Assembly: GCA_009602725.1 (NCBI GenBank)
Contig: WELB01000004.1
Span: forward strand, 1,142,185-1,206,184
Reading direction: 5' to 3'
Length of the DNA: 64,000 nucleotides
Source: Spirogloea muscicola
Taxonomy: Eukaryota; Streptophyta; Zygnematophyceae; Spirogloeales; Spirogloeaceae
Part shown: positions 701 through 64,000 of the stretch, one piece after another
How positions within the stretch are numbered: the first letter of the stretch is position 1
Layout: the number at the start of each line of letters is the position of its first letter
Notes under the pieces: generated by a model
What the model saw: the letters and a program-made list of their open reading frames with translations, nothing else
What the model was told of the DNA's origin: nothing
Database searches by the model: none
Position numbers and translations under genes: made by a program

Positions 701-800
701 TCAATTATGTCTCTGGCTCTCGTACTGTGTTCATTCTATTTTGGGCTGGCTTTTCAGCCCCTATCCTCAATGGGCGAGCACTTTCTCCTTCAGACCTTGT
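700..800 (+). repeat. Hairpin repeat module (GGGCTGG...CAGCCC)
   Basis: Contains GGGCTGG, a short T-rich loop and CAGCCC at about 743-760, followed by a conserved downstream segment reading CTATCCTCAATGGGCGAGC. The same unit recurs, for instance at 24241 (reverse), 55737 and 59553. The two arms form a 6-8 bp stem with a loop of about 4-5 bases. It belongs to the dispersed family described under 55200-59760. Confidence 0.8.
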
Positions 801-3600: not shown

Positions 3601-4031
3601 GGAGTGTGGTCGAAGTGCAGACTATGAGATCGCTCTGGCTGCGCACATGCTGAGGTGTGCTAAGAGAGGTGAGCCCATGGCCTCCACAACTTACTCAGAG
3701 ACGTCATGTTTGTTTGTGCGCGAGGCGGGGTAACACCCGGCAAAGGAGGTGTCGGGCATCATGCCAGTCTCCGACAAGCCATACGTGCGGCGTCTGGACG
3801 TGGTCTGACACCCCCCCGAGCGGTCGGCCTCGCCTGCTCCTGGACGTTGTACCTGACGACGCATTCAAAGCTGGAGCACCCACGTCAAATGCGCCTGGCT
3901 GGGCAACGGAGCTCAGTGCGGAGTTCCGGGCACCAGCGACCCGCGACCCGCGCCGCCTAGGGCCCGCGCGGCGGCGCCAGCGGCGGAGGCCGAGGCGGCA
4001 GCGGAGCCATGACCGGGCGAGCGAGGCGGTC

Positions 4032-21409: not shown

Positions 21410-22115
21410 TTCTTCGACCTGTGGCCGCTTAGCAGGGGTTACCGAGTATTCGTAGCTACTTAAATTCCCTGTGTGCTATAGCGCTTTCGCTGGCCTCTCT
21501 TTCAATTTCATGCGCACCGCGCGCCTGCTCTCTCTTTCCCTGGTTCCTTCGAAGTTTGTTCACTCTTTTCTCTGGGCTGCCCTCTCTCAGCCACCGCCCT
21601 CTCCTGAAAGCGTCTTTCTTCTTTTCGGGCTGGCTTTCCTACAACCCTGGGCCCTCTCCCAACGCAAATCTTGGATGAGCTTACGGGTACAGCCGCTTCT
21701 TCCGCGTATCAGCAGCCGTATGCACGGCGAGCTCCTCGGCCGGCGGTCTCGGCGTGCCGGCGCGCGAGGCAGGCCGGCGCTGCAGCCCGCCCGCCCGTTC
21801 GCCCGCGTCTCGTAAGCCTTCTTGCCTTGTGCCTTCCCGCTTGACCTGCCCTCTCCCAGCCGATCGCCCCCTCCTGGGCGGCCTGCCTCTCCTCCTTTAC
21901 CCCGTTAACAGGACATTTGTAAGGCTTAAATTGGCCTTCCTTTCAAATTCATGCGCCTTCTCTCCTCCGCCGCCCGCCTCCCCATTTATCGATTAGCGAC
22001 CTTCCCGTTTTGACCCATGGGTATTGAGCGGGTCAATCTGCTGTAGGTTATGTAGGTCTTCAGATGTGCTTGCCTTGTACTTGGCCATTTGACCTTCGTT
22101 TGATTTAGATACACG
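21410..22115 (+). repeat. Mosaic of LINE-tail and hairpin modules
   Basis: About 21410-21470 resembles the LINE 3'-end segment (GCTTAGCAGGGGTTACCGAG, TCGTAGCTACT) seen at 59270. About 21495-21530 and 21905-21960 are pieces of the GCGCACCGCGCGCC unit. A degenerate GGGCTGGC hairpin lies near 21628. About 22011-22115 is a good copy of the TGACCC hairpin unit. The GC-rich part 21690-21850 is open but has no recognised domain. Confidence 0.7.
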
Positions 22116-24174: not shown

Positions 24175-24365
24175 CTTGGCCTGATATGCCTCCAAGTACG
24201 TTGTGATCCTTGGAAGAAAGGGCTCGCCCATTGAGGATAGGGGCTGGAAAAGCCAGCCCAAAAAAAAATGAAGAAAGGACAAGAAGGGGGCCAGGGGAAG
24301 CGCTAAGAAAATCAAGCACAAAAAGAAACAAAGCAGCTACGAATCACTCAGTAACCCCTGCTAAG
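24175..24365 (-). repeat. LINE-tail module with hairpin, reverse orientation
   Basis: Read on the minus strand it goes GTTACTGAGTGATTCGTAGC, then a T-rich stretch with CTTAGCGCTTCCCC, then GGGCTGGC-TTTT-CCAGCCCC and ATCCTCAATGGGCGAGCC. The same order is present at 58020-58200 (reverse) and 59280-59590 (forward). This colinearity over about 180 bp defines one repeat rather than unrelated pieces. Confidence 0.85.
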
Positions 24366-24547: not shown

Positions 24548-24665
24548 TCGGGGATATTTAGTGTCCCCCCTAGCCAGTTCATTAACCAATTAACAGGACA
24601 TTTGTAAGGCTAGAATTGGCCTCCCCTTCAATTTCATGCGCACCGCGCGCCTTCTCTCTTTCTGC
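24548..24665 (+). repeat. GCGCACCGCGCGCC unit
   Basis: Runs from GGGGATATTTAGTGTCCCCC through TTAACAGGACATTTGTAAGG to TCATGCGCACCGCGCGCC. It is nearly identical in order to 20825-20970 and 55268-55375, with small indels. The start and end share no terminal inverted repeat that I can see. Confidence 0.85.
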
Positions 24666-25630
24666 TTGGAGAGCTTCCACAAAGTGTCGCTTGAGGTGGC
24701 CGACGGAGGCCCTGCCCGCGTGAGAAGGACCAAGAAACAAGCTTTCCCAATGTAAGAGGATGCCTGTGGTAGGCACAGCCCAAAAGGCATGAAGACGGTG
24801 TGAGGGCTGCTTGAAGTGGCGCGCCCCAGCCCAGACGCAGGTCCTGCTACGCGGTCCCTGGGCAGGCCAGACTGTTGCCCGGGGCCGCCGCCCGTGGCTT
24901 TTCAACGCGCGGTGGATTTTTTGGGAGTGTTGAGGATGATAGCATGACTACGGGACGACGCACCCCAGGTCCTGACAAAGCGGGCTGAGGTCACCCACTA
25001 AGTGCGTGACGCCACGAGACGTCACCAAAGACCTCACCCACTCCAGCGGGAAAGATTCTCCCGTGAGACCCTCAACCATCATTGATCAATCATGATACCC
25101 ACACGTGCGAGCGCCCAGGCTCCCTCGCATGGGGAGCTTGCCTTGGCACCGCGCTTGCGGTAGGTCCGTCCAGGTGTCCTAGCCACTGCCTCTGCCTCTT
25201 CTCTGTGGGGGCTCCCCCTTGGACGTAGTCGGGGGGGCATACTTTGGGCCACCTCAGCGGTCTGCAGGCTTGAATGCGTGCTACAGAATGCGGCTCTAGG
25301 CTTTGCCCTTCATCAGCGTGTTAGGCGCCCCTAAGCAAGGCCACGAGCTTCCATGGCGGTGCTCAGGCTCCCCAACCAAGCCTGCCCCGACTTGTATGTG
25401 CTCCCTCGTGTGTACAAACGCCCCACTCCAGCCGTGCTCCCGCCCTGCTTCCTCAGGCCCTAAGAGGGTAGAAGGGCTTCGCTTTGAGTAACCCCATCAT
25501 CTACACTGGCTTTGGCTTTAAGCGGACAGTGTTGGCTAGGCTTAACCACCTCCTAAATTTTCACGGTGTGCACTGCGTGCCACATCTCTCGACATTGTCG
25601 ACTTTTTTGAGCACATTCCGCCCCTTTTTG
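24666..25630. other. Repeat-flank DNA without a recognised gene
   Basis: A minus-strand frame of 107 residues (24905-24582) runs into the GCGCACCGCGCGCC unit, so its lower part is repeat sequence. I recognise no domain in the rest. The region is probably transposon-derived, since repeat pieces flank it on both sides. Confidence 0.4.
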
Positions 25631-25639
25631 ATGGGCTTC

Positions 25640-25870
25640 CCTTGGGAGCCGGTGGATTCCATGCAGCAGGCTCGCTCGCACAGGTGTATCGCATGCGCTT
25701 GTCCGTCTCGCTGCAGAGGTCCATGTAGATACAGCGCTCGCGCGCTGTATCTACGTGCCGGTCGTGCCTTAGCTGCAGCCTCTGTCTCTAGCCAGGGGAC
25801 CCGTTATTGGAAACTAGTTTCTCCGACCTGCGGCTGCTAAGAAGGGAATTCTGAGTGTTTCGTAGTTACT
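25640..25870 (+). mobile_element. LINE 3'-end remnant
   Basis: The translation contains VYRMRLSVSLQRSM, a break, then LYLRAGRALAAAS. It matches the C-terminal tail of the ORF at 58712-58323, followed by the same 3' segment (CGACCTGCGGCTGCTAAG, GTAGTTACTTG). It is a 5'-truncated, decayed copy of the non-LTR family. Confidence 0.75.
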
Positions 25871-25904
25871 TGATTCCTTATCTTTTTAAGCGCGATTCTC
25901 CTGT

Positions 25905-25985
25905 CCCCTTCAATCTTTGTTTATTCTTTTCCCTGGGCTGGCCACTCCCAGCCACCGCCCTCTCCTGGAAGCGTCTTTCTCTTCC
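25905..25985 (+). repeat. Hairpin module
   Basis: GGGCTGGCC-ACT-CCCAGCC at about 25937-25956, preceded by CTTTGTTTATTC and followed by ACCGCCCTCTCCTGGAAGCG, as at 21580-21610. It is one of the dispersed hairpin units. Confidence 0.75.
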
Positions 25986-32849: not shown

Positions 32850-33000
32850 AAAAGAGGGGCTGGCAGAGGCCAGCCCTAAAAATATGGAGAGAATTGAAAG
32901 GGCCAAAAAGGTGCCGAAAAGAGAAACCACACAGCTAGCGACGAGACGGCCTAAAGGGAAGCTCAGTACCCACGAGTGAGCAGCAGCAAGTCCGAGAGAC
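32850..33000 (-). repeat. LINE-tail and hairpin module, reverse
   Basis: On the minus strand a GGGCTGGCC-TCTG-CCAGCCCC hairpin lies at about 32858-32876, next to the segment with CGTGGGTACTGAGCTTCCC. It adjoins the 3' end of the LINE remnant at 33000-33690 and has the same orientation, as expected of that element's 3' tail. Confidence 0.75.
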
Positions 33001-33690
33001 TCGCAGCTGAGAAAGAGGTACTCCGCCTAGACCCAGATGCAGCAGCCATGGCGCGGCCTGCTCGCTAGTGGACTGCGTGAGCCAGGGAGCGCTGGAACGA
33101 GACCGCCAGCCGCATGCGGAGTACCTGCGCTAGGGAGCCGGCAGCATTGAAGCCGGGCAGCTCCCCTGGCTGACCCGGCCGCCGATTGATGGCCTGCCGG
33201 GTCAGCCAGCGGCTGCCGAAAGCCCCGTGGACATTAATCGCCAGAGCCGCGAGTTCATCACCAGCAGGGTGGTCGGCGTACTGACGCCTCTTGCCACGGG
33301 CCGCCAGGCCGACTGCGTGCCCGACCGTCAGACGCCGATCTGGTGAGGTTGGCGGAGTCGACGCAGTCGGCGGTCACCACATCCGCGACGATGCGGGGGC
33401 CGTCTCCGGGCGGGATGACGACCAGGCCGGCGCGCCGGGTATGGAGCTGCCCAGCCGGATGGGCATGATGCTTCCGACGGCGACAGTGTAGCCCGCCTCC
33501 GGGGGCGCTCCATGCATGTCGTTCCTCAGGAGGTCGTGGGGCCCGGTCCTCTCGCCTCCGCGCGCACAGCGGAGCATGGGTGCAGCCAGCTCCGCCGCGT
33601 CGGCGTGGCCGGGCACCGCACTCATACTGCTGAGGCCCAGGAGCCAGTGGACCGCCGGTGAGGGAAGGAGCCGAGGAGGAGCTTGCCACC
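33000..33690 (-). mobile_element. LINE C-terminal remnant (non-LTR retrotransposon)
   Basis: In pieces on the minus strand: RHNLL-like HDLLRNDMHG, then GLVVIPPGDGPRIVADVVTA, then NVHGAFGSRWL, then SLAQVLRMRLAVSFQRSL and RAGRAMAAASGS. These match the order of the C-terminal, post-reverse-transcriptase part of a LINE ORF and the cleaner copy at 58712-58323. The pieces fall in different frames, with a stop before RAGRA, so it is decayed. It is truncated at its 5' side near 33690, where the GC-rich block of 33715-33950 begins. Confidence 0.75.
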
Positions 33691-34452: not shown

Positions 34453-37381
34453 AGAAGTGCGCGTTCGTGGTGGCGGAGGAGGCGTGCGCGTCGGGGACGC
34501 TGGTGGAGTACACGCGCGCCTTCTACTGCCACTGCGGCCGGTGGCCCGCCGGCGGCTACGGCGCGCTGGCCCTGGCACTCGCTGCGCTCTTCTACATGCT
34601 CGGCAACACCGCCGCTGACTACTTCTGCCCGTCCCTCGAGCGCCTCTCCCAGCTCCTCCGCCTCCCGCCCACCGTCGCCGGCGTCACGCTCCTGCCCTTC
34701 GGCAACGGCGCACCCGATGTCTTCGCCAGGTCCGCTGCCTCTCCCGTTTTGTCAGACAGGCCATCTTGCTATAGTTACTTCTTTGTAAGTTGATGGGTTC
34801 GTTGGTTGGTTAAATATATTGTCATAGTTATTTGGGCATCGCTTCAATCACTTCTATTCGGGTATGTGTATGAGAGCCACGCCGCCTGCCCCGCTGACCA
34901 GCCTCCTCCTCCTTCGCCACACTGCCTCTGCTCCGGCTGGCTCCGTTGTTAGTACGAGACTTGCTGCCGCTTCGCACTTCCATGGCCCTCACTGCGGCCG
35001 TCGTTGCCTGCCCCGTGTGGCGCAGCATCGCGGCGTTCGTGGGCGCAGGCCAGGGCCAGGTGGGCCTCAACAGCGTGCTGGGCGCCGCGACGTTCGTGAC
35101 GAGCGTCGTCGTGGGCCTGGTCGCGTGCGCCGTCGCCGCCTCGGGCACCCGCGTACGGCTCCACCAGGGCTCCTTCCTCCGCGACATCTCCTTCTTTCTC
35201 CTCACGCTCATGGTCAGTCCGACCTCCCATGCAGTCGCTTTTTCAGCAGCTTACCTGATCCAGAAGCAGAGGACTGCTTGACTCTAATACGATCGATCAA
35301 CGTCATAGCAAGACAAGTTGGTATTGAGGTCATACTCTGACTGCCTCTGCTGCGTCCGAGCTGCATTGCTAAGCGCAGTCAAGGTGAGGGAACATGCGAG
35401 ACAGGCTTCACGCCAATGCTGAGGCCTTTGTGTGCGACCGACAGGCACTGGTGGCCATCATGGCCTATGGGAAGATCACGCTCGTAGGCGCCGTCGCTTT
35501 CATATCCATCTACGTCGCATACGGCGTCTCTGTCGCGCTTTCTGAGGTTCTGCGGCGCCAGGCGGAGCACTGGCACCTGCTACAGCCGCTCGCCTCCACA
35601 GGTCTGCAGGCAGGGGCAGCTCCTGCAGATTGCTGCTGTCCTCCTCTGTCTATCTATCTCACATTCGGCTCTGGCTTTAGCACGGTCAATATAGCCTTGT
35701 TCGCCTCAGGTGGGCCCCATTCTGCCATAGTTGATGCTGCAGCCGCTGAGCTGTAGCTACATGGACTTTAATCAAGAGCTTGCGTCTGTGCCTCTCACCT
35801 GCCATGCTTACCTACTACCTTACCTCCTCTCAATGACAGGCTTCGAGGGGCGGAACCTGCTCAAGGACTGCTGGCTGCGGGGTGGTGACGATGCTGGCGG
35901 TTATGGCGACGACTTTGGATACTCACTGCTCCAAGACGATGCGGATGCAGAGCGCGCTGCCATGCTGAGCAACACAGCTGCAGGCGGCGGCCCAATGCTG
36001 CCGCAGTGGATGTGGACAAGCAACGTAGCGATCTACCGCCACTCGAGCTCATTGGAACAGCGCCTGCGCGCAGAAGCAGCCAAGCGTGCCATGCAGCACC
36101 ATGGAGTTGTTGAGGCTGCCAATGAGGCCGAGGAGGGCGCAGGAGGGAGCCCGGCAAGCCCCGCCGTGCGGCCTCTCTGGGGCTGGAGCGATGCTGAGGC
36201 TGAGGCCAACGAGGTGCCCCATCCACTGTTGCCCCCAAGCCCTTTGTGTTGCCCTTGCTCCGATTCTGAAGGCTTGGGGTGCAGATTTGTTCAGCTGAGT
36301 GTTGAATCTCTGGAATTGCAAAATGGGATCCAAATGAGCAGCAGCATGTTTGATCAGCTCTGATGGCTGTGATTATGATGGAGAGCTGGTTATTTGAATT
36401 GTGTAGTAAGACAGTTGCCGTTGCCTTCATTGCACTGCCATGATATGTTTGTCCCCCTGTTATCAGTGCGCCAAAAGGCAAAGGAGGTGGCAAGACATGG
36501 CATGCATTGCATGGCATGGCATGCAGGGACGAAGAGCATGTTCTGACCTCCGGCAAGCCACCGTCCGTATGATGCAGAAGCCCAAGTGGTACACGCTGTC
36601 GGGACTGTGCCACTATGGCATTGCTTTGCCACTTGAGTTCCCGCGACGCGTTACAATCCCTATCCTGGACGAAGATCGCTGGAGCAAGCCTTGCACGGTT
36701 GCCGCGCTCGCGTGCGCACCACTTCTTGTGGCTGTTGTTTGGGACAGTTCCGACTCGCACCTCGGTGACGACGCAAAGGGTTACGCAATCGGCGGCGCCA
36801 TTGGCGCGGTCCTTGCTGTGCTGGGCTTGGCCACTCTCTCACCAGACCACCCGCCGGCACGCCTGCAGCTGCTCTGGGTCTCCGCCGGCTTCTCCATGAG
36901 CATTCTGTGGTTCTACCTCATCGCCAACGAGCTCGTTGCCGCACTCGTGGCGCTCGGCATTATCCTGGAGATCGACTCGGCGGTCCTTGGCCTCACGCTG
37001 CTAGCGTGGGGCAACTCCATTGGCGATCTGGTCGCAAACCTGTCGCTTGCCTGCAACGGCAGCGCCGATGGCGTGCAGATCGCTGTCGCTGGCTCCTATG
37101 CCGGCCCCATGTTCAACACACTCGTCGGCCTCGGCCTGTCCCTTGTGCTCGCCGCCTGGCGTGCGGCGCCGGCACCGTTCCGCATCCCTCGCGACGACTC
37201 CCTCTACTGGACTATCAGCTTCCTTGTCGCTGGTCTCCTGTACGCCCTCATCACGCTGCCCCGTGCCGGCATGAGGCCTGGCCGCGCGCTCGGCATTGGC
37301 CTCATTGCCCTCTACGCGTCCTTCCTTGCCCTCCGGATTTTGCATGTCTTTGGCATTGTGTCGCTGCCAGGCCTACGATGA
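34453..37381 (+). CDS. CCX: Cation/calcium exchanger (CCX, CaCA superfamily); 5' end in a gap
   Basis: Membrane antiporter of the Ca2+/cation exchanger superfamily, CCX branch (NCKX-like). Exons: 34453-34729, 35026-35212, 35445-35601, 35840-36213, 36578-37381, all in phase, giving about 599 residues. The first alpha repeat reads [37 protein letters not shown] and ASIAAFVG, with the hallmark GNGAPD. A Gly/Asp-rich cytosolic loop follows (exon 35840-36213, including [15 protein letters not shown]). The second repeat has [20 protein letters not shown] and [16 protein letters not shown], with GNSIGD. Several hydrophobic helices precede and follow each motif. The N-terminal signal or first helix is missing; an ATG at 33996 opens an Ala-rich frame that runs into the gap and could be exon 1. 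Whether it acts at the plasma membrane, vacuole or Golgi cannot be told from sequence. Confidence 0.9.
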
Positions 37382-43432: not shown

Positions 43433-44935
43433 TCAATGACTGTGGTCATTTCCAGCCCACTTGGGGTGCTCTGAGCCTGGAGGCGGACCTAACCTCGGAA
43501 GGAGCCAATATGGCATCCACTCTGTACCAAAAACGTGTCTTAAGTTCGTCATACTCATGCCCTGCCCTCGCTGCCCGGCAGCTCCATTGGTACACTGCAA
43601 AGAATCAATGTATGTAATCCCTCTCAACAAGAGCCTTAGCTGTTGACGCAAGAGGGTCGCCATCCCAATTGCTGTTCCAGCACCCGCTAAGCACAAGTAA
43701 AATAGCACCATAGCACGATAGCTTACTGCCATCCCAGAATTGGCTCTGAATAACCACGACAACTGCACGGTGGTCAAGGCAAGAAAGCCGCGCCTAATGC
43801 TCCCACTTCTGCTAGCATCCCGGATTGTTGTCAACTCGTGCGTGCAATGAGTGCGTAGAGTGTATGTAGAAATGCCAGCAAGATAAGTGCAGCTGATAAC
43901 AGCATAAATAAGAAAGAGAACAAAGTGTCTTTGATTGGTTGCTCCCACACAGTTGGCAATCTGCACCACAAGACCATCTATCCAAATTTCACTTGCAAGC
44001 AGCTGGCCAGAGAAAGGCATGCAATTGGTGCTAGAAAGTCTCAGCAGCAGCTTTCACCATTAGCTGGTGCCAACATCAACCATCTTGCCAACAAAGCGAC
44101 CACTACTGATAGTTGCAGATTTTGTAGTACTTACAAAGGGGCAGTGGTGATCCATGTCGAGAACGCATAGCCCGCAGGATCGACAATGGTGTGCACGATG
44201 GGGCTTAGGAAAATGGCACATTCGGCAGTACGTGACATTGTCTAGCCCGCCTTGTCCCACGGCGCTGCCTTCACCCCAGCACATCGGCGGCAGTCTGCCC
44301 GCAGGCCGGCACGAACAAAGGGCAAAGTTGAAGACGGTGTTGAAGGCCAATGCGGCCGTCAGGACAGTGTGCAGCAGGAAACCGCTGGATACTGCGGGGA
44401 AGAGCACCGGGAAGACGGACCACACACCGCCACCTGAGTGAAGCAACAGAGCTTGTCAACTGTGTGCCTGCAACAGGTGGGGTCGGACAAGATGGCTTGC
44501 ATGGCAAGACCAGCACGCCAGTGAAACGAACGCAGATGCATGGAAGCGAGCGGAGGAGGCGGCCGTGAGCAACACAGCGAGAGGGTGCGGCGTGAGCGAG
44601 CGAGCTGGGAGCGCACCGATGAGGCACAGGATGAAAGTGGTGACAGCGGCCAGCATGAGGCGGCCCTGCAGCTGCGACCACCGGTACTGTGCTGCGGTCT
44701 CGCGGGGCCAGCGGGCGCGCGCGCCCCGGGCTGCCGCTCTGCCCGCCGCCGCCGCCGCCGAGGCCGCCTGCTGATCGTCGCCTTCGACGGAGACGGCGCC
44801 GCACCAGCCGCACCGGAACATCGGGGAGTAGGCTGGCAGGCCGACGCCGAGGCCGCAGCCCCAGCAGCGCGTCCGCCACTCCATGGCCGCCAGCCCCTGG
44901 CCTCCGCCGCTGCCGCCGCCGCCGCCGTCGGCCAT
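43433..44935 (-). CDS. DHHC-type protein S-acyltransferase (plant PAT11-like)
   Basis: Palmitoyltransferase that S-acylates cytosolic cysteines of membrane proteins. Three exons agree in phase: 44935-44617, 44433-44135 and 43960-43433, giving 381 residues. The N-terminus has the plant-type paired-cysteine motif RCWGCGLGVGLPAYSPMFRC then GWCGA. Two hydrophobic helices follow (AAVTTFILCLIGGGVW, FPVLFPAVSSGFLL). The zinc-binding cysteine-rich domain starts NVTYCRMCHFPKP and ends in DMDHHCPF, with the catalytic Cys of DHHC. After the splice it reads IANCVGATNQRHF, where most relatives have IGNCVG. Two more helices come next (FVLFLIYAVISCTYLAGI, VLFYLCLAGAGTAIGMA). MTNLRHVFG near the end resembles the family's C-terminal motif. 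It is divergently transcribed from the Arg/Glu-rich gene. A second ATG at 44884 is an alternative start. Confidence 0.93.
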
Positions 44936-52197: not shown

Positions 52198-55060
52198 CTA
52201 ACCAACGCTGCCCTCGAGTTTCAAGCTCATAAGTTGGTTGACTTCTGCAGCAAATTCAAGCGGCAGCTCATTAAAGACCTCTCTGCAAAACCCAGAAATG
52301 ATCATTCCAACAGCCTTCTCAGCGTCTATGCCCCGCTGCTGGAAGTAGAACAGCTGGTCCTCGCCAATCTTCGAAGTGGACGCCTCATGCTCAACACGCG
52401 CAGTTGGGTCCTTGACCTGGAAAGTCACAGTAGCAGATCCTGACGACTTTGGTCAGCACAGCTACTATGGACATAGTTCCAAAATTCAGAAAGGATACTG
52501 AGACAGAGGAACGACAGCAGGGGAACAAGCATAAATGATGTTACCTGTATGTATGGATAGGTGTTGGCGCCCGCCTGGTCCCCAATAAGCATGGAATCGC
52601 ACTGAGAGTGATTGCGCGCACCGTGGGCAGTCGGTTGAATCTGCAAATCATCGCACACTGCTGGAGTCACTAGCCGCAAACTGAATATATACTCCGCCTG
52701 TCCATCAAATGCAGAAGAGGTGCTCAGCTCTGCTTTTATTACTGACAAATGTCGTAGGCAAGGGGTAATGCTCACCTGGACCAAGCCTCTGTAGCAATTT
52801 AATGAATTGCCAGCTGAGATGCCCTTAGAGACAATCCGTGACCGGGTATTCTTCCCGACGTGAATCATCTTGGTGCCTGTGTCAGCCTGTTGCCGGTTGT
52901 TCGTGAGGGCCACAGAGTAGAACTCGCCCTTGCTGCCGTCCCCCTTGAGGACGACCGACGGGTACTTCCACGTGATAGCTGACCCAGTCTCCACCTGCAG
53001 ACAGAGGAGGCCATGCACTGAGCAGCAAGCGGTAAACGGATGGGTCAAGCCTCTGCTGCCTCACAGTGGCACGCCAAAAGACTGTGCTACCGTGCAACAA
53101 GCAGGACTCCAATGAAGGAAACTTCACAGAAGCATAGGTCAATCAGCAGACAGCATCAAGTGGAAGTCACAACTTCGTCGGAGCATTACCTGTGTCCACG
53201 ATATCTTTGAGCTCTTGCCATCACAAAGGCCCCGCTTGGTGACAAAGTTGTAAATACCCCCAGCACCGTTCGCATCTCCTGCATACCAGTTCTGCACTGT
53301 AGAGTACTTGATCTCTGCACCCTCACCCGCAAACAGCTCTACTACCGCTGCATGCAGCTGCAAAAGCGACAATCCAAGTTGGGATCAAACTCTGTAAGTT
53401 GTGCAAGTCTCACAGGATTTTACCAGCACCCCGACTATGTGCTCTGCTATGTGGAACATTACACTGTCTTGTGAATTCAAGATATCAAGTACTGCGCAAA
53501 CTGCGCATCCATGCAAGTCACGTGCTTTAGTACCGGAAATGTAGCCTGTGCTTTCTTTCTCTGCACCTGATTCTTGTCGTATGCAGGTGCCGTGCAGCCC
53601 TCAAGGTAGCTGACATAACTGTTGTCATCAGCAACAATGAGGGTGCGCTCAAACTGCCCAGTCTCGCTGGCGTTGATGCGGAAGTAGGTGGAGAGCTCCA
53701 TGGGCGACACGGTGTCCTTAGGGATATAGCAGAAGGAGCCGTCACTGCACCAAAGTAGTGTATGACTGGGTCATGGAGTAGCCCGCCAGAGAGCTCAGTC
53801 ATAGCTCTGCCTATATCTGGCTTACAATTGAGGTGAAGCCCATCAAGCCTTCGAAGCAGCGCAATGACTGGTACATGCCTGGCTTACCTGAAAACGGCAG
53901 AATTAAGGGCGGCGTAATAGTTATCCGCGATTGGGACCACCTTGCCCAGGTACTTACGGACAATGTCTGGGTACTCCCTCACGGCCTCCGAGATGGAGCA
54001 GAAGATAACGCCCGCCCTGCCCAGCTCCTTCCGGAACGTCGTCGCAATGGAAACGCTGTCAAAGACGGCGTCCACAGCGACGTTGGCCAGGCGCTTCTGC
54101 TCGTTGAGCGAGATGCCAAGCTTGTCGAATGTTCGCAGGAGCTCGGGGTCCACCTCGTCCAGGCTCGCCTTCTTGTCCTTCATCTTGGGCTCCGAGTAGT
54201 ATGCCAAGTCCTGCGTGCACAACACAGATATTACCATCTCAGCCTTCTCAAGGAAACAGATACTCTCCAGCAGTAAGCCACAGGCCTCATGTAGGCTTGG
54301 CATGGTTTCCACTGGCAAGGGGAAATGCTGATCTAGCATGCTCACACGGCCGACAGGACTGAGTCGGGCACCACAGATGCTCTCCCATGCCAGGCAGGCA
54401 ATCTGCGCGTCTCTGCACCTTCTGGCTCTGCCCGCCAAGCTTCTCACTAGCCTCAGCTTTGCCCAACTGTGGCGCACCCGTGGCAGCAGGGACCAAGGCT
54501 GCGCACAGACCTGGAAGTTGATGTGGGGGTACTTGTTATCAGACCACGTGGGCTCCGTCATGGTGAGCCAGTGGCAGTAGGCGCGGAGGCGGAACTCAAG
54601 CATCCACTCGGGCTCCCTCTTCTTGGCGGAGATGAGGCGCACCGTCTCCTCCGACAGGCCCTTGGGGATGGTCACCGACTCGATGTCCGACACAAAGCCC
54701 CACTTGTAGTCGCGCTTCAGGAAGGCCTGGTTGCCACACCATGGTCCATGGGGTAAGATGATGGGAGGGGACAGCGGCTTTAGATGGTGAGATGAGTCGC
54801 AAGGGCTATCATTAGAGCTGACGACGAAGCTGAGGAATACTAATCGAAAGCGATCAAACGGCGCAGCAGAAGGTGCTGCGAGCCAGCGCTCCGGCCAGTA
54901 CCTCGATCGTCTCGTCGCTGCTGGGCGCCTTGGCCCTGGCGGCCGGCGGCGGCGGGCTCGCGTCCTTCTCCAGGACCTCCGCCGGGGCCTGGCATCGCGC
55001 GGCGCCAGCTGTGGCGCCGCGTCGGGCGCTGCGGCCCTGCCGCTGCGCCGCCGCCGCTCG
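52198..55060 (-). CDS. SUFB: SufB, Fe-S cluster scaffold subunit (plastid SUF system); 5' end unresolved
   Basis: Scaffold of the SufBC2D complex that builds Fe-S clusters in plastids. Exons: first exon ending at 54902, then 54726-54511, 54210-53888, 53744-53567, 53357-53190, 52994-52776, 52640-52545 and 52416-52198. All phases agree and the mature part is about 470 residues. Motifs: [161 protein letters not shown], and the end [11 protein letters not shown]. Nothing conserved is missing. The Ala/Arg-rich first exon resembles a transit peptide but has no start codon before the single unknown base at 55061, where the frame may be lost. The upstream flank is repeat DNA. Confidence 0.95.
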
Positions 55061-55261
55061 NCGGGGCGGCGGGGGCGGGGCGGCGGGGGGGGCTAGGTGG
55101 CCAGAGCTTCTTCTGACGGCAAGAGCTTCTTGGCGAACGAGCGTCCCGCTTGGAAGCCGCTGGCGCCCATCCAAACCTCCTCCGTCACCTTCTTCGACCT
55201 TGCCCGCTCTTCTCTGCTTCCTTTGTCGGGCTGGCCTGTAGCAGACCTCGCCACCTTTAAT

Positions 55262-55380
55262 TCGGGGAGATTGGTGTCCCCTTAGCTGGCACATTATCCC
55301 GTTAGCAGGGACATTTGTAAGGGCTAGGATTGGCCTCCCTTTCAACATCATGCGCACTGCGCGCGCCTTCTCTCTTGGAC
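55262..55380 (+). repeat. GCGCACCGCGCGCC unit
   Basis: Runs from GGGGAGATTGGTGTCCCC through TTAGCAGGGACATTTGTAAG to CATCATGCGCACTGCGCGCG. This is the same order as 20825-20970 and 24548-24665. It sits immediately upstream of the SUFB first exon and so may lie within or next to its promoter. Confidence 0.85.
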
Positions 55381-58300
55381 CACAAACCTGGTCGAGGCTT
55401 AGCTGGTTTAGGATGTCAGTTTGCTTACCTTTGCACTTGGCAAACCGTGGCCCTCCCATCAAAGAACAGCGCTCCATCAATCAGTACAGACTCCAGTTCC
55501 CCTTCGTCCCCCTTAGCCAGCCCATTGCCCCGTTACCAGGGATCCTTTTCTGGTTTCTCTTTCTCACGTCTTCCGGATGCGCTTGGCCATCTCTTTGCAG
55601 CGGTCCCCTGCCTTCGCATTTCACTTGCGCGAAGGCCGCGCTTCGGCGGCGGCCTCCGGCTCCGTCAGGGCGACGTCTTTCCGCCTGCGAGCTATTCCGC
55701 CTTGCATCTCTTGCCTTTGTGCTTCTTTTTTGGGCTGGCTTTTCCAGCCCCTATCCTCAATGGGCGAGCGCTTCTGAGCGTCCCTTTGTTGATATCTTAG
55801 GCCTTAGCACCCCGGCTCCTTCAGACCTTGTCCATTCCTTTGGGCTGGCCCCTCCCAGCCACCAGTTAACGTGGCCGCCCTTGCCCCTGTTCAGACATAG
55901 CATCTTCAGGCCCCTTGGTAGCTGCTAAACGCTTGTAGGCCCCCCCGAACCTTTGTCAAATTTTTTTTGGGCTAGCTTTACGCAGCCCTTGCCACCATTG
56001 GGAGTGCCACTTCTCTTTCTTTGGCTTTGGACATTGTCCATTCTTTTTGGGCTGGCTTTGCCAGCCCCACTTCTCTGTGGGCGAGCACTTCTCTCGCTTT
56101 GCCAGCCGGGCGAGCACTTTCTTTCTTTGTAAGGCTCGATTTGGCATCCCTTTCATTTCCATGTGCACCGCGCGCCTGCTCTCCTTTGGAAGAGCTCACT
56201 CAGCGCTTTTCGGCCCCTTCGGACCTTTGTCGATTCCCTTCGGGCTGGCTATCTAGAGCCCTCGCCCCGTTTGGGAGAGCCACTTTCTTTCACTTTTAAG
56301 AGTCTCACAGCCTCGCCCTTGTTCGCCCCTTCTTCTGTCCACCTTCCGGCTCTTTGGTTCGGAGCTTGTCCTTCTTTCCTTATTCTAAGCAAGTACCAGG
56401 GTTAATGTCCACTAAAGAAACCTCTACTTAGGAGCCGCAAGTCAGGACTACTGCTTTCTGGCAGCTAGTCAGACAAGCTGCCAAAAAGCAGTCCGCTTGA
56501 CGAGAGTCAGAGGCTGCAGCTAGAGCACGGCCAGCACGCAGGTGCAAGGCGTGTGCCTAGGACCGCTGGAGGGAGGGTAAGGCGCATACGAAACACCTCC
56601 GCTAGCAAACCAGCGGCGTTGGAGTCGACTCTCTGACTTGCGGCTGCTATTTATAGGTTTCTGAGTGACCATCCTTTGTGGTACTTGCTTAGCTGTGTTT
56701 CAGCACTTTATTGGCCCCTACGGACCTTGTCCATTCTTTTGAGCTGGTCTTTACAGCCCTCGCCCCCTTTGAAGAGCTGCTTACTCTCACTCCTTTCACC
56801 GCTCTTACTATCTCTGTGGCCTCTCACAGCCACTGCTCTCAATTTGGACGCGCTCTTCTCCGTAGTCTCTTGCATAGCTGTGATTTTGGCGCCATTCGGC
56901 CCTTTGGACCTTGCCCTTGCACAGCCCCCTCCTTTGGAAGAGCTCACTCATTTTACTATCTCTGTGCTTTTCACACGGATTGGAGGCTCCTCACACCTCA
57001 CTCGTAGCTATTGAGTTGTTCATCCTCCCCCAGTTCTGAGATAGCGCTTTTGGCCCCTTGTTAATTTGGCCCCTTCGAACCTTGTCATTCTTTTCAGTAT
57101 CTCGCGTTTTACGCCATTCGGCACCTCCAGACCACGTCCAATTTGTCGGGCTGGCCTCTCACTGCCACCAGTCAATTCTGAAGCGCTCTTTCTCTATGTC
57201 TTTCTTTGGGGCTGGCTTCTCACAGCCACTGTTGTCAATCTGGAAGCGCTTCTCCCTTACCCCCATTGGGAGAGCCACTTTCTTTCTTCTGCCGGGTTGC
57301 TATAGCAGGTGTACCGCATGCGCTTGACCGTCTCGCTGCTCGCTGCAGAGGTCTATGGCCCGCGCGCTGCACCTGCGTGCCGGAAGAAGAAGTGCTCGAC
57401 CATAGAAGAAGTGGCACTCCCATGGGAGCAAGGGCTGCGAAAAGCCAGCCCAAATAGAATTGACAAAGGTTCGGAGGGTCTACAAGCGTCTAGCAGCTAC
57501 AAAAGGGCCTGAAGATGCCATGTCAGAATAGGGGGAGGATGGATCACTCAGTACTTACAAGTGAGGAGCCTCAGATCCGACAGACTAGCTGCCGGAATAT
57601 TATCCCCCTGACGAAAGCCGGAGGCCGCAACAGAGAAGAGGGGCTGGCAAAGCCAGCCCAAAAAGAATGGACAATGCCAAAGCCAAAGAAAGAGGTGCCG
57701 AAAAAGAAGGAAGTGGCACTCCCAATGGGGGCAAGGGCTGCGAAAAGACAGCCCAAAAAGAATTGACAAAGATTCGGAGGGGCCTACAAGCGTTTAGCAG
57801 CTACAAAGGAAAAGCTCGCCCATAGAAGAGAGGAGCTGGCAGAAGCCAGCCAAAGAAGAATGGACAAAATCCAAAGAGCTACAGGAGAATCACTCAGTAA
57901 CCTCTGCTAAGCAGCCGCAGGTCGGAGAGGCTAGGCTCGTTGACACAAAGGGGCCTGAAAATGCTACGTCAGAACAGGGGGAGGATGGATCTCGTCACTC
58001 AGTAGTGACAAGTGAGGAGCCTCAGATCCGACAAACTAAGAAGAAAGTGCTTGCCCACTGAGGATAGGGGCTGGAAAAGCTGGCCAAAAAAAAGTGGACA
58101 AAGTACGAGAAGGGTTCCAGGGGAAGCGCTAAGAAAAACAAGCACAAATAGAAACAAAGCAGCTACGAATCACTCAGTAACCCCTGCATACTCAGACTTG
58201 CATCTCCTGATGACTAGAGGTTACTGAGCGTTCCCTGGCTGATGTCTTAGTCCTAGTCGTTCGCACTCAGGCTCCCTCAGACCTTGTCCATTCCTTTGGG

Positions 58301-59760
58301 CTGGCCTTTCCCAGCCACCAGTCAATCTGGCCGCACTTCTCTGCTAAGCAGCCGCAGATTAGAGATGCTAGGCTCCTGGAAGTGGGTCCCAAGGCCAGAG
58401 CCAGAGGCAGCAGCGAGGGCTCTGCCGGCACGAAGGTGCAGCGCGCGGGCCATGGACCTCTGCAGCGAGACGGCCAGGCGCATGCGGTACACTTGCGCCA
58501 GCGACTCGGCTGCAGGAAAGTCTACCGGCTCCCCTTGGAAGCGACGGGCGATGGCGTGGCGGGCGAGCTGGGTGAGCAGCTCGAGCCACCGAGCGCCCAG
58601 CGCCCCATGGGTGTCAATTGCCGACGGGAAGAACTCGTCTTCCCGCGGATGGTTGGCGTACTTGAGCTCTTTTGCCCAAGCGGCGCAGGCGACCGCATAC
58701 CCAGCCTTGGAAAGAGGACTACACTACCAAACACAACAACGCACTAGGGAGCTCAGTACCCGAAGAGCCCTCGCTGCCTCCGGCCAGGGGACCGGCTTCC
58801 AGCAACCTTGTACCTCTGACCTGCTCGATGAGGGAGGACCATTCCATACCGTAAGCACCGCATACATCTATAGAAAGAAAGAAAAGAGGCTCTCCACGAG
58901 GGCAAGGGCAGTGAGAGAAGCCAGCCCAGATGGAGTGGACAAGGTCGCGAACGGAAGAAAGCACGGCCAGATTGACTGGTGGCTGGGAAAGGCCAGCCCA
59001 GAGGAATGGACAAGGTCTGAAGGAGCCGGAGTGCGAAGGACTAGGACTAAGACATCAGCCAGGAAACGCTCACTAACCTCTAGTCCGGAGATGCAAGTCT
59101 GAGTAGCTAGCCGGCGGAGAGACGTCGCCCTGACGGAAGCCGGAGGCCGCCGCCAAAGCTCGGCCTGCGCGCAAGTGAACCTTGAAGGCAAGGGACCGCT
59201 GCATTGAGATGGAGAACGGAAGGGGTGGTATTTGTGCCCGCTTCCAGGAGCCCAGCTTCTCTTACCTGAGGCTGCTTAGCAGGGGTTACAGAATGCTTCG
59301 TAGCTGCTCAGTTTCAAATTTTGTGCTTGTTTTTCTTAGTGATTCCCCTTGCCCCTTCTCGTCTTTTGTACATTCCTTTTTGGGCGTCTTTCCGCCGGCT
59401 AGCTACTCAGACTTGCATCTCCTGGCTAGAGGTTACTGGACCCTGGCTGATGTCTTCGTCTTAGTCCTTCGCACTCCGGCTCCATCAGACCTTGTCCATC
59501 CCTTTTGGGCTGGCCTTCCCAGCCACCAGTCAATCTGGCCGCGCTCTCTTTTTGGGCTGGCTTTTTCCAGCCCCTATCCTCAATGGGCGAGCCCTTTCCT
59601 CTTGTTGTAATAATTCTCTTGCCCCCGTTGGGAGAGCCACTTCTCCTCTGGGCTGGCCTTCCGCAGCCATTACCTAATAATATGTCGGCTTGAGTTGGCC
59701 TCCATTTCATTCATGCGCCCCGCGCGCCTTCTCTCTCTATATTGGCGAGAGCTTGTTTCT
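55380..59760. repeat. Mosaic array of hairpin modules and LINE 3' ends in alternating orientation
   Basis: At least 18 copies of a unit with a GGGCTGG...CCAGCC stem-loop. It is usually preceded by CCTTGTCCATTC and followed either by CTATCCTCAATGGGCGAGC, by ACCAGTCAATCTGGCCGC, or by CTCGCCCCCTTTGG. Forward copies lie near 55737, 55845, 55970, 56048, 56243, 56740, 57148, 57213, 58298, 59505, 59553 and 59660; reverse copies near 57425, 57640, 57728, 57830, 58068, 58925 and 58980. LINE 3' protein tails are interspersed (55610-55700 and 57300-57390 forward, 56450-56650 and 59080-59210 reverse). No host gene is visible. Confidence 0.85.
58323..58712 (-). mobile_element. LINE C-terminal ORF piece, uninterrupted
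   Basis: An open frame of about 129 codons without an ATG near its start: GYAVACAAWAKELKYANHP, FFPSAIDTHGALGARWLELL, ESLAQVYRMRLAVSLQRSM, ARALHLRAGRALAAASGSG, then SISNLRLLSRE. It resembles the C-terminal end of LINE reverse-transcriptase proteins (final domain after the nuclease-like region). It is the best-preserved copy of this 3' end in the window and serves as the reference for the others. It is 5'-truncated near 58712. Its stop lies inside a hairpin module, so the module forms part of the element's end. Confidence 0.75.
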
Positions 59761-62489: not shown

Positions 62490-62880
62490 AATGTAGAGAG
62501 AGAAGGCGCGCGGTGCGCATGAAGTCGAAAGAGAGGCCAATTCTAGCCTTACAATTGTCCTGGTAACGGGTGAATGAGTCGGCTAAGGGGGGCACTAAGA
62601 TTCTCTAGTGAGCACACACATATCTGACAAGCTAAGCTGAGGAGCCAGACCACCACCACGGAAGCCATTAGCCTGGCCTAATGCACGCCCAGCACGCTGG
62701 TGTATGGCGAAAATGTAAGGCCAATGGCTATAAGAGGCCAGCTCAAAGAGGAAAAGTTCCTCCAATGTATCGCCGGGCTGGTCGCGCCCTTGCAGCAGCC
62801 TCTGGTTTGCGCAGCGGGGTTGCTCTTCCTCCCCTCAGCTCATCTGACTTCCTACTGCTGACTCGGGGGTATTGAGGGCG
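62490..62880. repeat. Repeat modules downstream of GIF
   Basis: About 62495-62600 is a reverse copy of the GCGCACCGCGCGCC unit (minus strand reads CATGCGCACCGCGCGCC, then backwards through TTGTAAGGCTAGAATTGGCC). About 62770-62875 forward is a LINE 3'-end remnant with YRRAGRALAAASGLRSG and then SDFLLLTRGY before a stop, matching the C-terminus of 58712-58323 and 33000-33690. Confidence 0.75.
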
Positions 62881-62959: not shown

Positions 62960-63175
62960 CAGCAGCCGCTTTCTCCCTCAATGTAGGGCAATGGCTGTGA
63001 GAGGCCAGCCCGAAGCAATGAACAAGGTCTGATAGGGCCGAAGCGCCACATATAACAAAGCTACTCTGGGGGCTACACGCTATGTGTAGCCCCATCCGCA
63101 GCACTAGCTCTTGCCTGGACGTTGTAGTGGCTTGCTTTGGCCACCTTTTTATTACATGTGCACCGCATCTGATGA
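62960..63175. repeat. Hairpin module (reverse) and a unit shared with 3100-3175
   Basis: About 62985-63050 in reverse contains GGGCTGGCCTCTCACAGCC followed by the CCTTGTTCATTG-like end. About 63100-63170 matches 3100-3175 in order (CACTAGCTCTTGCCTG, GTGGCTTGCTTTGGCCACC, CATGTGCACCGC). Both belong to the dispersed set. Confidence 0.7.
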
Positions 63176-63239
63176 ATGTTATGAGTGGATGTTTTAGTAT
63201 AGTCGCGAACACCCTCTGTTACCCTCCCTTCCCTTCCCC

Positions 63240-64000
63240 TCCTTGGGAACACGCAGCTGGCGTTGGCCATCCTCACCCGCTGCATCGGCCAACGGGCTTG
63301 CTATCTGCAACGGACAGTCGCCCCATTGGGCATGGTGGCGGTGCTCTATAAGGAATATGATGACTCCCTTCAGCAGTTCCTGGCATCCCTACTACATTCT
63401 TCATCTTTCCCCTCAGCTTCAGCTTCCCTCCAGGCCTCCCTCCCTACTCGCATGGGCGGCCTTGGCTGCCGGTCGTTGGAGCAGACGGCGCAAGCAGCCT
63501 TCCTGGGCTGCTGGCACCAGATCGCCTCCCTGCTACCCATGCGCTTCCCTTGCCTCCACGACCCTGTACGCAATGTGGAGGAAGGCTCCTTCCCCTTCCA
63601 AGCGGATCTGAGGAGCATCCGCGACTCAGCCATCAGCTCTTTCCCCTCTCTCCAACCCTACTCACGCCATTCTCCACCCTCGCCCAAGCTTCTGGTAGAG
63701 GGGCACAATCCAGACTGGTTACGGCAGTGGAAGACGAACGCCGCAGAAGGTTGAGGAGGCTGCCAGAGATTCAGAACAATCCGAGGAGCTTGGCAAGACT
63801 CACTTCTCTGGCCACACCTGGTGCCACTGACTGGATCACCTCTCCCCCCGTCGCCAACGCCTTCAGCATCAGCTCCGAGGCCTTTCGGACATCGCTTCAA
63901 CTCTTCCTCGGCCTCCCACCTAATTGCCTGATTGGGGTGCGCCAGTGCGAGTGCGGCTTCCGTGCAGAGGGTGCTGTGCTCGCCACTCACATGCTGAGAT
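63240..64000 (+). mobile_element. LINE reverse-transcriptase ORF, C-terminal half, running off the window
   Basis: An open frame (63263-63754) reads TRCIGQRACYLQRTVAP, SASLQASLPTRMGGLGCRS and AAFLGCWHQI. This is the region after the polymerase core in plant and algal LINEs, where LPxRxGGLGxRS is typical. The similarity continues in a second frame from about 63730: VEDERRRRLRRLPE, TDWITSPPVANAFSISSEAF, SLQLFLGLPPN and CECG, the start of a zinc-binding motif. One frameshift therefore separates the two parts. The element probably belongs to the family whose 3' ends litter the window, because its continuation would be the segment seen at 33690-33000. Confidence 0.75.

Follow-up and report, generated by a model that had tools for sequence, protein, structure and literature searches.

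We analyzed a stretch of 64,000 nucleotides (nt) from Spirogloea muscicola (contig WELB01000004.1, positions 1,142,185 to 1,206,184; hereafter the window), in which a shuffled array of short units, each built on a GGGCTGG..CAGCC hairpin, occupies positions 55380 to 59760. This array is very probably a nest of 5'-truncated copies from several sister lineages of R2-like long interspersed nuclear elements (LINEs), which share a hairpin-capable motif at their 3' ends. In the mechanism that we propose, each lineage has its own 3' untranslated region (UTR), and the common motif sits some 30 nt upstream of a 3' end rich in pyrimidines. Through this motif the LINE protein most likely grips the 3' end of the RNA, where target-primed reverse transcription would start. 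An early stop of synthesis would then lose the 5' part of a copy and keep its motif, and the insertion of new copies into older ones, in either orientation, would split units and produce the shuffled arrangement. A sequence-only reading of the window had taken the hairpin for the recognition tail of the local LINE family. The results below confirm that it is a LINE 3' end; its recognition by the reverse transcriptase (RT) is a step that we infer.

The unit is frequent in both the window and the genome. Perfect GGCTGG-N-CCAGCC hairpins occurred 8 times in the array, against none in 100 dinucleotide shuffles of the same interval, and 11 times in the whole window (17 strand matches), against 0 or 1 in 30 shuffles. 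A relaxed pattern, which allowed up to two mismatches and required a pyrimidine-rich upstream stretch, found 17 unit copies in the array (11 on the plus strand and 6 on the minus strand). With a few decayed units detected by similarity to the tail types described below, this agrees with the roughly 20 copies in both orientations that had been reported, and the loop sequences vary as described there. In the genome (153,112,186 bases in 471 contigs), the pattern GGGCTGGN{3,8}CCAGCC gave 11,766 and 11,775 matches on the two strands (23,541), and the reversed pattern only 9 and 5 (14). Palindromic sites score on both strands; corrected by the ratio of 11 sites to 17 strand matches in the window, we estimate about 15,000 perfect hairpin sites genome-wide. 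A search of the same assembly for rbcL gave no match.

The evidence that this unit terminates a LINE begins on the minus strand of the window, where positions 58711 to 58340 encode the end of a protein frame. This frame end led to a genome search with 17,369 first-look candidates, of which 150 were scored, all with E < 1e-62; some of the scored matches sit in frames of about 1,100 to 1,400 amino acids. Four long copies of this element, which we call LINE-A, were fetched (L059, L060, L061, and L062), and their pairwise identity was 99.82 to 99.95%. L059, L060, and L062 align over 4,111 to 4,115 bp, and the first part is absent from L061 (3,927 bp). All four terminate in a type A unit with a CTTTCTTCT end, the hairpin lying about 80 nt past the stop codon. 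Three of the four carry the 5' start, a 20-letter word with 13 copies in the genome, and the type A tail stands at the expected distance in 6 of those 13 (the three fetched copies plus C66, C338, and C453). The sequence-only reading had named full-length LINEs ending in the unit as support for its proposal, and such an ending is seen in the four fetched long copies, three of them with the 5' start, and in three other copies with that start. Rfam gave no match to the window at the gathering score and a single match to L059, at E 0.4 and below its gathering score.

The link between frame and tail extends well beyond LINE-A. We aligned seven tail types (45 copies of A, 18 of B, 7 of C, 9 of Cp, 6 of D, 7 of E, and 6 of F), which have in common the GGGCTGG..CAGCC motif, preceded by a stretch similar to GTNNATTC, and an end rich in pyrimidines; the copies were chosen by their tail letters, so their conservation is partly imposed, although the 5' arm lay outside the selection patterns. 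The 3' UTR outside the motif seems, by eye, unalignable between types. After the removal of redundant loci (L004, L006, L047, L052, L054, and L055), a script placed a hairpin within 260 nt behind 37 of 45 frame ends. Nine of these 37 raw cases were rejected as another copy or tail type and two were left uncertain, so that 26 of the 45 frame ends have, by eye, an own-type sense hairpin 45 to 115 nt behind them (types A, B, C, Cp, D, and E). The remaining frame ends were interrupted by another copy (7), were cut or interrupted without a hairpin (6), had tails of the types X or X2, neither of which has the hairpin (4), or were uncertain (2). The frame in L050 continues beyond the usual stop. Five look-alikes from long terminal repeat (LTR) elements (cluster 3) were left out, and the stretches L083 to L102 were used only in frame-comparison analyses. 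Hairpin tails follow frame ends as diverged as 45 to 48% amino-acid identity to LINE-A; the lowest well-aligned case is at 45% (window 33592-32966), and the accepted row L008 1264-1410, which aligns poorly (34%), was not taken as the lowest. Of the 10 type B frame ends on C1 to C4, 6 are followed at a distance of 91 to 173 nt by an exact 25-mer of the B tail.

These links bear directly on a different view of the unit, in which it is a tRNA-derived short interspersed nuclear element (SINE) on the other strand, the hairpin being an anticodon-like arm in an RNA polymerase III head and the followers being SINE tails. On the minus strand, GGTTCGAA and TGGC..GG do resemble B and A boxes in a by-eye reading, and a T-run is absent there. 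However, ARAGORN called no tRNA anywhere in the window. In the sense orientation, LINE frame ends run on into the unit and the long copies stop with it, truncation affects the other end of the copies, and LINE 3' UTR and frame lie upstream of the hairpin for the 26 frame ends just described. The frame-to-tail linkage refutes this reading for the tail types seen and, since LINE frame ends stand in front of the unit, we dropped the tRNA-derived head as highly improbable. The non-autonomous partner that had been suggested alongside the LINE was not found either: no partner with its own head was seen, and no genome-wide search was aimed at one.

Several further tails and frames lie near this family. 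A tail type X, which ends in CATGCGCMCCGCGCGCCTTCTCTCTC, lacks the GGGCTGG hairpin and has a short GCGC-NNN-GCGC inverted repeat in its place. In the window, type X tails occur at 55309-55375 (plus strand, 91% to the X query), 56126-56187, 59687-59738, 62495-62562 (minus strand), 24558-24659, and 21491-21537, and tails of this type stand behind related LINE frames at 34 to 57% identity. Diverged frame pieces from other lineages, about 40% identical to LINE-A with one short piece at 57%, lie on the plus strand at 63233-63999 and 3602-3881. Type B tail words at G000:C1:1708270, 1708434, and 1708598 share a strand and are exactly 164 bases apart, possibly a tandem array of whole tails.

Copies of these elements form a gradient of 5' truncation. 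Exact words placed along LINE-A (20, 24, 24, and 26 letters, the tail word having one ambiguous base) rose in number from the 13 at the start to 23 at the RT active-site region, 123 at position ~3,600, and 1,964 in the tail; reversed controls gave 0. Tail words of the other types were comparably abundant, with 1,579 occurrences for type B and 2,488 for type C/Cp. We then considered the window and eight 10-kb stretches (L039 to L046), a sample that also serves for the arm changes and core pairs below. The 3' end was complete in 63 of 88 tail fragments, 41 of these 63 kept 60 nt or less upstream of the hairpin, and their start points were spread. The earlier proposal that the unit was multiplied by 5'-truncated insertions is supported by both the word counts and the start points.

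The shuffled look of the array is largely explained by units that have inserted inside each other. At locus L059, a full LINE-A is inserted in an older type A copy with a GAAACAAA duplication, and shorter nested copies carry the duplications CTTCTATCAGA (L039), GTTATTG (L041), CCTGGCCAG (L046), TTTCTTTA (L049), AGGAAAG (L057), and GATTTG (L062). These insertion duplications are variable and 4 to 11 nt long, an unbroken relative serving as the empty site; they were picked by eye from noisy lists (121 and 20 rows), without a shuffled control. The sequence-only reading had observed that simple truncation does not explain many different followers behind one hairpin. This is accounted for by sister LINE lineages with differing 3' UTRs and ends, inserting inside each other.

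Nesting also bears on the spacing between units, which we measured in the window, L039 to L046, L001, L002, L003, L007, and L008 (L001, L002, L003, L007, L008, and L039 were chosen for their hairpins, and the other seven 10-kb stretches by position). Head-to-tail neighbors abutted within 12 nt in 24 of 60 pairs with a complete upstream 3' end and in 10 of 53 with an incomplete one. Such close spacing was seen in 4 of 34 5'-to-5' pairs; among 3'-to-3' pairs it occurred in 0 of the 12 whose two ends were complete and in 2 of the other 22. Same-orientation nesting explains part of the head-to-tail excess. Template jumping may add to it, because, of the 17 nt that precede the LINE start inside the duplication in the L059 insertion, 16 agree with the type B 3' end, and the C31 copy has the identical B-to-A junction with 17 of 17 letters (its 3' side reads N).

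Taken further, template jumping could have built whole arrays as chains from single events, the RT running off one LINE RNA and jumping to the 3' end of another, which would join complete 3' ends to the 5' end of the next fragment. Template jumping by a non-LTR RT has reportedly been published. The abutting of 24 of 60 complete head-to-tail pairs versus 0 of 12 complete 3'-to-3' pairs would fit such chains, as would a GAAACAAA duplication that encloses both a full LINE-A and the type B-like 17 nt, with the same junction in C31. However, matching flanks show that in several abutting pairs a nested copy has split an older unit, and nesting predicts the same geometry. The chimeric leader is found in only 2 of the 13 copies with a 5' start, the others having ACACCA (6) or TTGA-type leaders (5), some on shared flanks, and the chimeric junction could also come from a chimeric master copy, an assembly error, or a duplication. 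The nested insertions therefore weaken template jumping as the main cause, and we consider chains from single events unlikely.

Two observations on 5' ends stand apart from this question. The ACACCA leaders of LINE-A occur on three kinds of flank, the TTGA-type leaders include CTCTTTTGA, and the two remaining leaders are type B tail ends. Truncated LINEs also form head-to-head pairs (L003 1444-1545, L045 2311-2411, L001 1409-1541, and window 56385-56692), three of them with possible outer target duplications of 5 to 7 nt, which could mean priming from both ends of a break. The outer repeats are short or of low complexity in L003, L045, and L001, and none exceeds 4 nt in L060, so we claim no duplication for them.

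By its protein, LINE-A resembles R2. Its frame is open over 1,337 amino acids, counted stop to stop, with an RVT_1 match at E 8.3e-16; in a PDB search up to E 10, no RT other than R2 proteins (~1e-6) was matched. Toward the N-terminus, C2H2 matches in Pfam were weak, below cut-off, and confined to residues 302-322; a second finger-like CxxC..H..H pattern was read by eye, and the alignment to the R2 finger scored only 1.8 bits. Pfam recognized no endonuclease family in the frame at E<=1, apurinic/apyrimidinic endonucleases (APE) included. The APE-type family PF14529 had 0 candidates genome-wide, and PF03372 was not searched genome-wide. A C-terminal CxC..H..C motif and an RR-x-D..GG.R...DV..K block are conserved in relatives at 34 to 44% identity, and we read the C-terminal block, by its motif, as a putative restriction-like endonuclease (RLE) of the PD-(D/E)XK type. 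The Cys/His spacing, C-x-C-x12-H-x3-C, differs from that of R2. The element does not appear tied to the 28S ribosomal DNA site as R2 proper is: flanks differ among the copies read and are often other LINE copies (ribosomal DNA was not compared).

The hairpin arms look constrained. Across 56 copies, 16 of 672 arm positions were changed, compared with 41 of 370 in the loop, 100 of 1,371 in the downstream 30 nt, 84 of 762 in the upstream 14 nt, and 87 of 951 in the next 26 nt. The arms changed less than the downstream stretch (Fisher p 2e-6) and the upstream 14 nt (p 3e-11), a deficit that may partly reflect how the copies were selected, as they were found by similarity to the consensuses. Of the 280 core pairs in these copies, 269 were unchanged, 2 were changed on one side and still paired, and 9 were broken. 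The 5' arm is identical across the seven consensuses, although the outer or the inner flanking pair is missing, by eye, from B, C, Cp, D, and F.

Several results, including the selection of copies and the by-eye choice of duplications just mentioned, weigh against our interpretation. No compensatory pairs were seen among the 280, which bears out the earlier remark that the arms co-vary little and fails to provide the paired substitutions that had been sought as support. Swapping halves between tail types gave no matched advantage. Minimum-energy folding recovers the core stem for four of the seven consensuses (A, E, Cp, and F) but fails to do so for B, C, and D. Stem pair probabilities are lowest for D (0.07) and B (~0.24), intermediate for C and F (~0.4-0.5), and >=0.97 for A, E, and Cp. 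Folding was clearly better than in shuffles for A and E only (z -2.2 and -3.1), the others ranging from -1.2 to +0.8. The tail was not at the expected distance in three copies with a 5' start (C95, C96, and C135), and its expected position reads N in 4 of the 13. Finally, the LINE-A C-terminus had no sequence match in the PDB, so that the proposed RLE and CCHC readings depend on motifs. We hold the LINE interpretation less firmly because the stem folds in only four of seven consensuses and because of the 5'-start copies without a tail in the expected place. The claim that the stem is retained stands in that the arms look constrained, but the stem lies outside the predicted fold in three consensuses. 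Given the lack of covariation support and the mixed folding, recognition of the motif by sequence is at least as likely as recognition by structure.

The same results could fit a motif kept merely by recent common descent of the tails, with no function for its stem or sequence: compensatory changes are absent, folding does not predict the stem for three types (B, C, and D), and the motif is short. Against this, frame ends have diverged to 45 to 48% while the rest of the 3' UTR looks unalignable by eye, and the arms change less than the loop and flanks, so we regard common descent alone as quite unlikely. The motif is the one short part of the 3' end that sister lineages share, most of the rest being different, which makes it a good candidate handle on the RNA for an RT of this kind. 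Two more elaborate structures were rejected. A wider conserved stem (z -3.59 in the L059 3' UTR) forms in only A and E among the seven consensuses, and what had looked like a compensatory change between types A and C failed the consensus fold and swap test.

Since R2-like LINEs without a fixed site, LINE 3' hairpins, and template jumping are all already published, the element is of a known kind, an R2-like LINE with a hairpin-capable 3' end. We found no published description of this particular LINE, a weak negative with most subscription journals outside the search. R2-like LINEs without a fixed site exist (PMC7650587). LINE-A resembles R2-clade LINEs in having one frame only, an RT whose nearest solved relatives are R2 proteins, no poly(A) at the ends read, and frequent 5' truncation, as well as in a finger-like motif toward the N-terminus and, at the C-terminus, CxC..H..C together with a motif read as a putative RLE. 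It is unlike them in that the sites read varied and were mostly other LINE copies, and in being dispersed in very many copies. The idea that LINE tails and SINEs share a related 3' end with a hairpin is an established one (PMC3747384); this review describes "stringent" LINEs (plant L1 and others) with a ~50 nt 3' end related between families and a putative hairpin, as here. In the plant LINEs reviewed there, stem letters vary with compensation and the loop is conserved, whereas in the present element it is the loop that varies and the stem letters that stay the same. The same review gives the green-algal RandI/Dualen LINEs non-poly(A) ends, like those of the present element, and one Chlamydomonas SINE with a RandI tail a (CTTT)n end.

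LINE-A has no APE by Pfam, and the genome has no PF14529 candidate. In this it is unlike Dualen LINEs, which carry an APE as well. Entamoeba LINE/SINE pairs are R4-like elements of the RLE type, dispersed and repetitive; LINE-A is likewise dispersed, repetitive, and, by its motif, putatively RLE-type, but no SINE partner was recognized here. For an R2-like LINE, tails this abundant and this short are unusual, as is the degree to which diverged lineages keep the motif. The genome thus offers an R2-like, apparently RLE-type LINE as a dispersed and very abundant repeat, with some long copies near-identical, and its sister lineages allow one to ask whether stem or sequence is read by the RT. More speculatively, a site-specific LINE may have lost its target and split into lineages that share a 3' handle, such that the protein of one lineage can copy the tails of another. 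We find this doubtful; if true, the B-to-A chimeric 5' start within a duplication would directly record a template jump between lineages, and such jumping would have produced part of the arrays.

The array can be followed in order along the window. On the plus strand, a LINE C-terminal coding piece at 55544-55696 (63% to the LINE-A frame) is the left part of a type B copy. It is followed by a 51-nt 5'-truncated type A tail with a perfect hairpin (55723-55773, 98% similarity), which sits between B pieces with ~15 nt of B missing by eye, and by a type B tail with a perfect hairpin (55774-55882). Tail similarity then identifies type C (55871-56014), type E with a perfect hairpin (56013-56090), type Cp with a decayed hairpin (56204-56285), and two decayed type B tails (57119-57251), all on the plus strand. 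Between the last two lies the head-to-head pair at 56385-56692, with 61-nt arms 77% alike and, by eye, minus- and plus-strand LINE C-termini joined 5' to 5'.

The minus strand carries a type C tail (57406-57550) and a type E tail with a perfect hairpin (57632-57705), both by tail similarity. Next on this strand is a type C copy (57710-57988) split at ~57807/57945 by a type E insertion (57806-57938) that leaves a 5-nt overlap, ACAAA, and has C-terminal codons before its tail by eye. The LINE-A 3' end on the minus strand (58041-58710) comprises the frame at 58710-58341 (92-93%) and a type A tail at 58187-58041. It is split at 58187/58341 by a plus-strand type B copy (58189-58338) with a perfect hairpin and the overlap CTGC. 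A minus-strand type B tail at 58955-59112 has C-terminal codons immediately 5' of it. At the end of the array, a plus-strand type A tail (59266-59598) is split at 59385/59549 by a plus-strand type B copy with a perfect hairpin (59397-59550), the 9-nt overlap TTTTTGGGC standing on both sides.

Eight outlying units had also been reported. A unit is present at all eight places but has a perfect hairpin at only three (24241, 25935, and 32858), and those at 21627 and 42974 are badly decayed. They include type A tails at 718-790 (plus strand) and 24213-24361 (minus strand, perfect hairpin) and a type F tail at 62979-63029 (minus strand). Two are LINE 3' ends whose frame ends contain two stops each: one on the plus strand at 25627-25980 (48% to LINE-A) with a type D tail, and one on the minus strand at 32858-33592 (45% to LINE-A) with a type E-like tail and a perfect hairpin. 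Pieces of host genes (a sodium/calcium exchanger, a DHHC palmitoyltransferase, a SufB/D core, and a SufB/D N-terminal match just short of the cut-off) lie at 36410-37378 (plus strand) and at 43433-44050, 52425-53057, and 53884-55089 (minus strand).

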